Assembly: GCA_003647645.1 (NCBI GenBank) | Contig: QMNG01000004.1 | Span: 1 to 56,795 of the forward strand | Direction: 5' to 3' | DNA: 56,795 bases | DNA from: a candidate division Kazan bacterium | GTDB lineage: Bacteria > Patescibacteriota > Kazan-3B-28 | In this document: positions 7,316-52,168 of the stretch, in pieces | How the letters are laid out: each line of letters starts with the position of its first letter | How positions within the stretch are numbered: position 1 is the stretch's first letter | The notes under the pieces: model-generated | What the model was told of the DNA's origin: nothing | Seen by the model: the letters and a program-made list of their open reading frames with translations, nothing else | Databases searched by the model: none | Position numbers and translations under genes: made by a program

Positions 7316-8790
<1,475 letters not shown>

Positions 8791-8949
8791 GGGAGACCCA
8801 TATATTTGGCAGCTAGATTACTAGGTGTGCAAATATTAAAGGTTCTTACTAGAATCATTGGTCGAGATTTCGCTATATGCGAAATCAATTCTGCTGTACA
8901 GCAGAATCTCCGACTCTCTAAGTACTATCTGGGTGGATAAGTATCCTTC

Positions 8950-9147
8950 GGTACTTTGTCTTGCCAAAGTACCCAAAGCGTCTCCGCAGTCGCTCTCATT
9001 ATTCATCTAATAAAATCCCCTTACTGCTCTCGCCAAACTTGCCCTACGGGCTTCGGACAGATGGCTTCGCAACAGGGATTTTATTGATTCAGGACATTCG
9101 AGCTCCAATGCTCGATGGTTGGCTCCGCCAAAAGGAAGATATTATTT
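8950..9147 (+). repeat. Structured intergenic element, copy A
   Basis: GGTACTTTG-TCTTGC-CAAAGTACC; TAATAAAATCCC/GGGATTTTATTG; CCAAACTTGCCCTACGGGCTTCGGACAG; TCGAGCTCCAATGCTCGA; TTGGCTCCGCCAA; GGAAGATATTAT. Confidence 0.9.
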
Positions 9148-9162
9148 AAAATAAAAACCACT

Positions 9163-9190
9163 CCCTGTTCGGGGTGATTTTTATTTTTGG
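9163..9190 (+). terminator. Putative terminator after 16S plus element A
   Basis: CACTCC-CTGTTC-GGGGTG (one T.G) followed by ATTTTTATTTTT. Confidence 0.65.
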
Positions 9191-9204
9191 TGGACCCGGG
9201 CGGA
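9188..9204 (-). repeat. Duplicated 3' end of tRNA-Ala
   Basis: TGGTGGACCCGGGCGGA, 17-nt identity with 9310-9326. Confidence 0.85.
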
Positions 9205-9309
9205 TTATCTTATTGCCACAGTACCAGTCGCAATGCTCCGGTACGTGGCACTCACTATTCGCTCTTATCGTGGCGGCGCCACGAACTTGAGCATAAGGCG
9301 AATAGTTCG

Positions 9310-9385
9310 TGGTGGACCCGGGCGGACTCGAACCGCCTACCTCCGCATTGCAAATGCGACGTTCTACCGGGTGAACTACGGGCCC
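9310..9385 (-). tRNA. tRNA-Ala(TGC), CCA encoded
   Basis: Minus strand GGGCCCGTAGTTCACCCGGTAGAACGTCGCATTTGCAATGCGGAGGTAGGCGGTTCGAGTCCGCCCGGGTCCACCA. Confidence 0.96.
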
Positions 9386-9616
9386 CTATGTTCCAAACCA
9401 AATGAGGTCAATGTTTCCAAATCCTACCAGAAGCCCTATCAGGATGGCAAGCACTCCAAACAAAACATAAGCCAAGTAGGTGCCCCCGCCGCCCAAGAAC
9501 TTCTCAGCCCAGCCGATTTTATAACCAATTAGATCAGCTAGTTTTTTGTGGTAGATGATCAATAAAATTCCCCCAAAAACTCCAATAATGAAAATTAGAA
9601 ATCTCATAACATTCAA
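9386..9616 (-). CDS. Small two-helix membrane protein
   Basis: 76 aa, two hydrophobic helices; stop codon abuts tRNA-Ala. Confidence 0.6.
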   Translation of the reverse strand: MNVMRFLIFIIGVFGGILLIIYHKKLADLIGYKIGWAEKFLGGGGTYLAYVLFGVLAILIGLLVGFGNIDLIWFGT

Positions 9617-9752
9617 ATTATATCAGGCAATCGCGTTGATAGAGAGTAAAATTCCTGTTAATCTACTGTTGTTGTATATTTAGACTAGAATCTACTTGAT
9701 AGTTAATTGTTAGTAGTTGGATATTGGAAATTAAATTGCGGAGCAATTTTGG

Positions 9753-10008
9753 GGGCATGTAGCTCAGTTGGTTAGAGCGCAGTCCTGACCAGCCGACGCA
9801 TAAATACATTTTGAAATTGTGGGCACATAGCTCAGTTGGTTAGAGCGCAGTCCTGATAAGACTGAGGTCCCTGGTTCGAGTCCAGGTGTGCCCACCACAA
9901 TTTCAAAATATGCTATGGCTGGCTAGGTAAGACTGCCTGTCCTCCGTAGCTCTATGAAATAGAGCGAAGGACGAAAGGTCCCTGGTTCGAATCCAGGCAT
10001 GCCCACCA
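9753..10008 (+). pseudogene. Interrupted tRNA-Ile(GAT): exon-like segments 9753-9788, 9928-9935 and 9976-10008
   Basis: Segments join to a 77-nt cloverleaf with perfect acceptor GGGCATG/CATGCCC; inserts 9789-9927 and 9936-9975. Called pseudogene for lack of expression evidence. Confidence 0.75.
9821..9897 (+). tRNA. tRNA-Ile(GAT), nested in the interrupted tRNA-Ile
   Basis: GGGCACATAGCTCAGTTGGTTAGAGCGCAGTCCTGATAAGACTGAGGTCCCTGGTTCGAGTCCAGGTGTGCCCACCA. Confidence 0.97.
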
Positions 10009-13525: not shown

Positions 13526-14443
13526 CTATCTTCTGCGCCGGCTGTGGAAGGCGCGGTGGACGTCCTTCAGCTGGCGGTTAGTGATGTGGGTGTAGACTTG
13601 GGTAGTGGTAATAGAGGAGTGGCCCAGCAGGGCTTGGACGGAGCGGATGTCGGCTCCGTTTATTAACAAATCAGTAGCATAAGAATGGCGCAGGGTGTGA
13701 GGCGTTACTTTTTTCACTATGCCGGCTTTGGTAGCATATTTTTGTATAATTCGCTGAACACTGCGGGGGGTAAGGAATTTGGCATTGGAATTAATTCCAT
13801 GTGAAATAAACACATATTCATTGTTATCCTTGCGTTTTTCTAAGTATCGTCTGAGAGTTGTCTTGGCTTCGTCAGACATAAACACAATTCGAGGTTTGTC
13901 GCCTTTGCCCCGGACCATAAACTCTCCGCGTTGGAGGTTAATTTTCTCTTTTTTAAGGGCAGTTAACTCAGAAACTCGCAGGCCGGTAGAAAAAAGAGTC
14001 TGAAGAATGGCATAATCTCTTAAATGTTGAAGTTTATTATCTTTGGGTACAGCTTCAAATAACCGATCGAGTTCATAAATTTCCAAAAAATCAACTGATC
14101 GTGGCGGGGTTTTGGGCAGTTCTATTTTTTCTGCCGGCAGAGATTTGACATCATTCCTAGCGAGGAACTTTAAAAATGCTCTAAGTGCGATAATGTGGTA
14201 ATTCTGAGTAACAAGTTTTAAGCTCTTTCCACTTGCATCTTTATAGCGATTAAGCCATTGGCGATATTTGCGAACCAAGGGCAGATCAATTTGGGCGGGG
14301 GAGAGGTTCTGTTTGCCAGCGCGTTTGGCAAACTCCAAAAAGCGCATCAGATAATGGTGGTAGTTATTCAGTGTGCGCTGGCTGCGATTTTTCTCGATTT
14401 CCATATAATCGAGAAAATCATTTATGTAATTCTTAAATCTCAT
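13526..14443 (-). CDS. XerC/XerD-type tyrosine recombinase
   Basis: STGLRVSELTAL, HTLRHSYATDLL, LLGHSSITTTQVYTH; start placed at MRFKNYINDF. Confidence 0.93.
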   Translation of the reverse strand: MRFKNYINDFLDYMEIEKNRSQRTLNNYHHYLMRFLEFAKRAGKQNLSPAQIDLPLVRKYRQWLNRYKDASGKSLKLVTQNYHIIALRAFLKFLARNDVKSLPAEKIELPKTPPRSVDFLEIYELDRLFEAVPKDNKLQHLRDYAILQTLFSTGLRVSELTALKKEKINLQRGEFMVRGKGDKPRIVFMSDEAKTTLRRYLEKRKDNNEYVFISHGINSNAKFLTPRSVQRIIQKYATKAGIVKKVTPHTLRHSYATDLLINGADIRSVQALLGHSSITTTQVYTHITNRQLKDVHRAFHSRRRR

Positions 14444-14482
14444 GATTTCATCCCTTGCTATATTGTGCGACATTATACTAAA

Positions 14483-14515
14483 TAAAAAAAGAGGCTCCGA
14501 ACTAGTTCGGAGCCT
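14483..14515 (-). terminator. Terminator overlapping the stop of the 14514 ORF
   Basis: Perfect 24-bp palindrome AGGCTCCGAACTAGTTCGGAGCCT then CTTTTTTT on minus strand. Confidence 0.88.
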
Positions 14516-14813
14516 AAGTGTCCGGCCACCAGATGATAACTGGCTGATTCTCAAGTAGAGGACAAGGCCCGATGACACCACTGAGAGAGGAAGAGCACTT
14601 GGGTAACTTCTGCCTTTGCCACCGTCCGTAAACGTGTGTCAGAAATATAGATTGGTGGTTGGCGCAGAGCTGATGGAGTTGTTCGTCACCAATCAGCCGG
14701 TGCACTTTGCAGTTGGCTATACTCTCGTGGCACTGAGCCATCATAAAAAGAACATTGTAAACATGGTTTGGTATCTGAGACCCAAACTTCGTAATGAATT
14801 CCATTAGGGTCAC
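14514..14813 (-). CDS. Hypothetical small protein
   Basis: SD AAGGAG on minus strand, GTG start likely; own terminator. Confidence 0.6.
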   Translation of the reverse strand: MTLMEFITKFGSQIPNHVYNVLFMMAQCHESIANCKVHRLIGDEQLHQLCANHQSIFLTHVYGRWQRQKLPKCSSSLSGVIGPCPLLENQPVIIWWPDT

Positions 14814-34698: not shown

Positions 34699-34800
34699 GA
34701 ATTCACTCAATCGAACTATAGAGTCGAGTGAGTTCTGCCCTCCGAAGCGTTATCTGTATCACAAGAGGCGAATGTCCTATTTGTGACGGGATGAAGAGAT
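34697..34800 (+). repeat. tRNA-Thr trailer element, copy 1
   Basis: CAGAATTCACTC...GAGTGAGTTCTG then CCCTCCGAAG...TATCACAAGAGGC; homologous to 35108-35215. Confidence 0.8.
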
Positions 34801-34922: not shown

Positions 34923-35034
34923 CGCAAAACTCACTTCGTCCGTCGCGTGATGCAGCCATAATGTAAAATAGTTCTTTGCGTGAGCTGGGCGCTGCCATAT
35001 TTGGACAGACAACTCAAGAATTGTTTAACAACAC

Positions 35035-35109: not shown

Positions 35110-35215
35110 GAATTCGCTCAATTTTAATATAGCGTCAAGCGAATTCTGCCCTCCGAAGTGCTATCTATATCACAAGAGGCAAATGACTTATTTGTAATGA
35201 GATGAAGCAAAGGAT
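35108..35215 (+). repeat. tRNA-Thr trailer element, copy 2
   Basis: CAGAATTCGC...GCGAATTCTG then CCCTCCGAAG...TATCACAAGAGGC. Confidence 0.8.
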
Positions 35216-51968: not shown

Positions 51969-52168
51969 GGATAATATCTTCCTCTTGGCATTAGCCAACA
52001 ATCGAGCATTGGAGCTCGAATGTCCTGAATCAAGCCAATCGCTTTAATCAGCGTGTTCACTGTTTGAGCGAAGCGAGTTTGGTAATAAGCAGATAAAGCA
52101 ATTGACTTAGATGAATAATGAGAGCGACTGCGGAGGCGGTTTGGGTACTTTGCCAAGACAAAGTACCG
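51969..52168 (-). repeat. Structured intergenic element, copy B
   Basis: Reverse complement nearly identical to both flanks of copy A; central stem replaced (TAAGTCAATTGCTTTA/TAAAGCGATTGGCTTG). Confidence 0.92.

Follow-up and report, generated by a model that had tools for sequence, protein, structure and literature searches.

A 105-bp double-hairpin segment, lying between two copies of the 3' end of a tRNA-Ala gene in the window (the whole stretch of DNA analysed, 56,795 nucleotides long), is probably the nuclease-less relic of a small GIY-YIG homing-type mobile element that resides directly behind the CCA of tRNA and tmRNA genes, the repeat being the resident 3' end displaced by cutting and repair. 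At the level of sequence comparison the family, its position, its link with the nuclease, the variable occupancy of its sites and the displaced tRNA ends are established.

The target gene is an intact tRNA-Ala(TGC) with encoded CCA (9310–9385, minus strand; ARAGORN, Rfam), and the features that accompany it are all on the same strand. Read in this direction, the gene runs from 9385 to 9310 and ends with TCCGCCCGGGTCCACCA, the proximal copy of the 17-nt tRNA 3' end (9310–9326). It is followed by the 105 nt of the non-autonomous element (9205–9309), by a second TCCGCCCGGGTCCACCA (9188–9204) whose left edge is at −17, at the T-loop/T-stem boundary, and, directly after this distal copy, by a terminator-like inverted repeat (9148–9187, arms 9148–9164/9171–9187). 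The element is composed of hairpin 1 (CGAACTATTCGC ... GTTCGTGGCGCCGCCACGA ... GCGAATAGT, 9254–9306), nearest the CCA, and of hairpin 2 (TGCCACGTACC GGAGC..GCGACT GGTACTGTGGCA, 9214–9250), which has the imperfect hairpin motif in inverted form. The repeat TGGTGGACCCGGGCGGA is identical at 17/17 positions between 9188–9204 and 9310–9326, its copies are 122 nt apart and it is the sole direct repeat detected in the region examined (8800–9700). Both the exact repeat, whose second copy is the tRNA-Ala(TGC) 3' end including CCA, and the two strong hairpins had been reported in the preliminary description and are found as described; the 105 nt fold with −46.1 kcal/mol versus a shuffled mean of −26.9 (z −6.6, 0/200 shuffles). 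In an alternative 5' stem of hairpin 1 the tRNA CCA takes part in pairing (CCACGAAC/GTTCGTGG). Rfam gives rRNA, tRNA and tmRNA matches only, with no intron and no known RNA family for the hairpins. From the terminator-like repeat behind the distal 17-nt copy it appears that the gene originally ended with this copy and that the 105 nt were inserted between, the inverted repeat at 9148–9187 being probably the original terminator of tRNA-Ala. That the bounded segment is very short and non-coding, as first described, is correct for the window copy; its shortness would be explained by its being the nuclease-less form of a larger element.

Other hairpin segments at tRNA 3' ends were sought, and homologues are dispersed in the genome of origin (G000) and in relatives, those recovered by DNA search being candidate division Kazan bacteria. 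They are found at the tmRNA gene in G000 (contig C6) and in G005, and further after tRNA-Met, -Tyr and -Phe genes and after broken ends of tRNA-Ala. Ten copies share a common structure in which both sides are changed in 10/26 pairs and 95% of cells are paired, versus 29–45% when the pairing is slid by 1–3 columns. The covariance model R1, trained on these ten copies from the hairpins only, without tRNA or CCA, has matches in 27 of 379 same-phylum genomes (102.7 bits for the window copy, a training member). Among the 54 R1 copies inspected with their surroundings, ten of which are the training copies, 35 start flush (0–1 nt) at an annotated same-strand tRNA or tmRNA 3' end and 15 more lie directly after CCA, several of them at recognisable tRNA 3' remnants, while the remaining four do neither. 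Leaving out the training copies (n = 44), 29 are flush with a tRNA or tmRNA and 11 are directly after CCA. The targets cover eleven tRNA species (Ala, Val, Leu, Phe, Met, Gln, Arg, Ile, Asn, Pro, Tyr) and tmRNA. A test for a CCA-including inverted-repeat arm in the genome of origin is positive at 7/35 ends versus ~1.7 expected (4.9% control); with 8-nt arms sought at +0 to +2, an earlier test (2/33) was insensitive because the stem starts inside CCA. Note that CCA-flush hairpins stand behind ~7–10 tRNA or tmRNA genes of this genome; among these are Ser(TGA), Ala(GGC) and Pro(AGG), the last accompanied by a GIY-YIG gene. Within the window such hairpins also follow tRNA-Thr(GGT) (34699–34745), tRNA-Tyr (34923–34985) and tRNA-Thr(TGT) (35110–35150), those behind the two tRNA-Thr genes having sequence in common.

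Behind the hairpins of 19 of the 54 R1 copies lies a GIY-YIG ORF, which starts −2 to +228 nt from the element end and usually within ~60 nt. These ORFs were detected by profile, a regular-expression search having missed members; several are preceded by TATAAT and a few are truncated. The encoded nuclease is a single GIY-YIG domain of ~85–95 aa whose catalytic core is intact in full-length relatives, residues Y5, Y16, G18, R26, H30 and E62 being invariant in 15 longer proteins. Its structure model (pLDDT 91.5) resembles UPF0213 BH0048 and the branched-DNA nuclease Slx1, a predicted likeness that would fit an enzyme recognising hairpins or cruciforms. There is no GIY-YIG gene in cis in the window copy, whose link to the nuclease thus rests on homology. 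No Rfam intron family reaches the gathering threshold in ten element loci, showing that the element is not inside a self-splicing intron.

The association is also seen when starting from the protein. In GTDB species genomes, the best 80 of at least 507 relatives of the nuclease were examined, and 52 of these 80 loci have a same-strand tRNA or tmRNA less than 500 nt upstream of the GIY-YIG gene, with none of the same 80 having an antisense one within 600 nt. In a small control, ~3 kb at each of seven UvrC loci, a tRNA is found in 0/7. The other 28 of the 80 have no recognised upstream tRNA, some lying at contig ends or beside tRNA remnants. The surveyed loci come from many Patescibacteria and from Omnitrophota, Nitrospirota, Planctomycetota, Zixibacteria, Cloacimonadota and others. 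In 36 of the 52 tRNA-linked loci an inverted-repeat arm begins 2 nt inside the tRNA end (background ~2.4%), which means that the CCA itself belongs to the palindrome. The nuclease tree, which is weakly resolved, needs 31 changes of tRNA identity, and moves of elements between tRNA species seem to be common. GIY-YIG matches per genome, UvrC included, amount to 14 in G001 (700 kb), 17 in G006 and 13 in G007.

A second downstream copy of the locus's own tRNA 3' end is present at a minority of occupied sites, 10 of the 52 GIY-YIG loci, versus 0.9 expected from the tRNA ends of other loci. Together with the window, where 17 nt of the native 3' end are duplicated and displaced past the element, and three model loci, there are 14 displaced copies in all, of which eight lie beyond the GIY-YIG gene. 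Their left edges fall at −24 to −16 in 10/14, within the T-loop (GTTCRA at −24 to −19) or at its edge; control matches to tRNA ends mostly begin further out than this region. A target duplication at every copy was considered and dropped, a longest-common-substring test on the first 50 copies having given few positives downstream. The preliminary description had taken the repeat of the window for an att footprint, and the direct duplication of a tRNA 3' end is indeed the classical mark of integration: a tyrosine recombinase, either an integrase or a housekeeping Xer protein acting in trans, would have inserted the segment between attL and attR of 17 bp, and an Xer-type recombinase is encoded in the window (13526–14581). 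This origin is unlikely, however. In the 54 R1 copies and the 80 GTDB loci no integrase gene recurs with full-length relatives of the element, the recurrent linked gene being the GIY-YIG gene that follows the hairpins in longer copies, and the window recombinase resembles XerC/D/A, which is present in most bacteria. Moreover, most flush copies are without a downstream repeat, whereas integration leaves one unless it has decayed, and the displaced copies mostly start in the T-loop, a known GIY-YIG cut region. The att reading was abandoned on these grounds in favour of the GIY-YIG element.

Single-strand transposition of the IS200/IS605 or REPIN type, in which a Y1 transposase would act on the hairpins and the GIY-YIG gene would be a passenger, is similarly improbable. 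It would agree with the two imperfect inverted hairpins, their conserved bulge and internal loop, and with insertion directly after the fixed word CCA, and REPINs and other IS200-IS605 derivatives are likewise short non-autonomous units with two imperfect inverted hairpins. Their mover is nevertheless a Y1 HUH transposase, which was not found in the carriers G001, G005 and G006, each with several copies of the element, and the gene that recurs beside the hairpins codes for a GIY-YIG protein. REPINs are not known to be tRNA-directed.

Insertion of the GIY-YIG element at tRNA and tmRNA ends is best seen where relatives differ at the same site, a presence/absence polymorphism found at both the tmRNA and the tRNA-Ala end. 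The last 20 nt of tmRNA are nearly identical among the Kazan genomes compared, making the orthologous ends directly comparable. The element and a GIY-YIG gene are found there in G000 and G005, a different hairpin and a GIY-YIG gene in G001 and a terminator-like hairpin in G006; G002 and G004, the latter from the genus of G001, lack any such element. At the tRNA-Ala(TGC) end, G000 has the window element and G002 has none, G004 and G006 have another insert, and in G007 the hairpin is of another type. The same arrangement in every relative, with no empty tRNA-Ala site, had been named at the outset as the finding that would speak against insertion; the end is empty in G002. Such variable occupancy argues for insertion rather than a conserved trailer, and insertion directed at the tRNA 3' end, as first proposed, is strongly supported by homologous segments that abut the CCA of tmRNA and of many different tRNAs, at ends that are occupied or empty among relatives. 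That the hairpins are an immobile structured 3' trailer for tRNA maturation or termination, inherited with the tRNA, is very unlikely: it would account for their strong structure with covariation and for their constant location on the tRNA strand flush with CCA, but as a full explanation it is contradicted by the empty sites, by orthologous tmRNA and tRNA-Ala ends that carry the element, a different version or none, and by the same sequence standing behind unrelated tRNAs and tRNA remnants in linkage with a nuclease gene. A processing role of the element once inserted is possible.

A full copy of the GIY-YIG element is laid out as tRNA ending in CCA, hairpin 1, hairpin 2, a promoter-like TATAAT (in some), the GIY-YIG gene and (in some) the displaced tRNA 3'-end duplicate. 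Its cleavage activity, repair route and the role of the hairpins we infer as follows. The nuclease would break an unoccupied tRNA gene in the conserved T-loop (GTTCRANTC), acting in trans for short copies without the gene. Repair from an occupied copy would bring a new tRNA 3' end together with the element, by which the tRNA would stay functional, and the resident 3' end (17 nt and the terminator in the window) would remain further downstream, forming the second direct repeat. The structure recognised by the Slx1-like nuclease is probably that of the imperfect hairpins, with a stem that includes CCA. This model of T-loop cutting and repair leans on analogies with SegB and mORFs and on the left edges of the displaced copies. 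Simple homing with a donor-borne 3' end poorly explains the frequent switches of tRNA species, since acceptor stems must match and such an end cannot easily change species; a second route, by precise joining at CCA, is likely on account of these switches.

Among known systems, one of the closest is SegB, a free-standing GIY-YIG homing endonuclease of the tRNA arrays of phages T4/T6 (PMC2988022; PMC13096335, citing Brok-Volchanskaya 2008). Its reported cut motif, RAWTSGAAC (PMC13096335), is complementary to the T-loop sequence GTTCSAWTY of tRNA. SegB is alike in the location of a GIY-YIG gene beside tRNA genes of many types, outside introns, and in the match of its motif to the T-loop complement; it differs in being a phage gene between tRNA genes, with no CCA-flush paired hairpins described in the passages on it. 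The window family, in contrast, has a short single-domain protein, is found in bacterial chromosomes and includes nuclease-less copies. The mORFs of fungal mitochondria with duplicated C-termini (Allomyces atp6; Glomus atp6/atp9/cox2/nad3) are endonuclease elements, in one case GIY-YIG, that supply or duplicate the 3' end of the target gene and displace the native end downstream (PMC3630166). They differ in having mitochondrial protein genes as targets and larger endonucleases, whereas the window family is found at bacterial tRNA and tmRNA genes with conserved hairpins. The rRNA genes of CPR bacteria hold GIY-YIG insertions that belong to neither of the intron groups I and II (PMC11270868). 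These share with the window family the occurrence in Patescibacteria and of GIY-YIG genes in structural-RNA genes, but they lie inside rRNA genes, their authors place them outside spread by homing and tRNA is absent from the main text (PMC11270868). The GIY-YIG proteins of UPF0213/COG2827 and Slx1 have similarity in sequence and fold to the element nuclease; no description of either as part of a tRNA-linked mobile element was found in the open-access literature. Nor was one found there of the tRNA-end hairpin/GIY-YIG element family, a description elsewhere being possible, and the family at the tRNA and tmRNA CCA ends of several bacterial phyla is apparently undescribed.

Several further peculiarities are found in the window and at related loci. 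The 16S rRNA gene (7316–8787) has no 23S gene in the window and the next gene is tRNA-Ala on the opposite strand, showing that the usual 16S-Ile-Ala-23S order is broken here. An intact tRNA-Ile(GAT) (9821–9897, plus strand), flanked flush by a perfect 15-nt inverted repeat (9808–9822/9895–9909), lies within the anticodon loop of another, disrupted tRNA-Ile (9749–10008, plus strand), whose 5' half (9749–9788) is 93% and 3' half (9976–10008), further split by a palindrome, 91% identical to the intact copy. The tRNA-Ile(GAT) with its inverted repeat resembles a mobile unit that brings a replacement tRNA with it. A dispersed repeat at 9100–9145 has copies with 88–90% similarity at 51971–52017 (minus strand) and in contigs C3 and C64 of G000. 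Remnants of tRNA genes are interrupted by short palindromes, for example TTCTGCTG..CAGCAGAA and TCCGCCAGCTGGCGGA, which are also found repeatedly between genes (L039, L057, L070, L078, L082; window ~8890–8910). A conserved stretch, ~TGATATCTATATCA..AAGAGGCAAATGACCTATTTGTGATGAGA, recurs in inserts beside tRNA 3' ends in several genomes (L010, L011, L039; window 34757–34800 and 35157–35203); in L010 and L011, after tRNA-Ala, a displaced 3' end of tRNA-Ala comes next, its T-loop damaged. In a second arrangement the GIY-YIG gene overlaps the following tRNA, its stop codon falling within the 5' end of that tRNA (L070, L078, L094, L099; L048 downstream). In the first four of these loci a broken 5' end of that tRNA, palindrome-interrupted in some, is found upstream of the GIY-YIG gene, as if the element had replaced the tRNA 5' half.

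A broader reading, plausible but tentative, is that there is a widespread class of bacterial mobile DNA without transposase or integrase in which a hairpin pair and an Slx1-like GIY-YIG nuclease would transpose among tRNA and tmRNA genes with a CCA-exact junction, in Patescibacteria, Omnitrophota, Nitrospirota, Planctomycetota, Zixibacteria and other phyla, time and again breaking and restoring essential tRNA genes and so reshaping tRNA loci. The 3' ends of tRNA genes are among the commonest docking sites of bacterial mobile DNA, normally via integrases; the recurring partner here is a tiny single-domain nuclease, annotated no further than GIY-YIG domain, and the sequence targeted is both essential and universally conserved. 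The large and poorly understood GIY-YIG protein family to which it belongs (at least 507 relatives) gains a testable function and site, and the element could explain the broken and duplicated tRNA pieces found in streamlined genomes.
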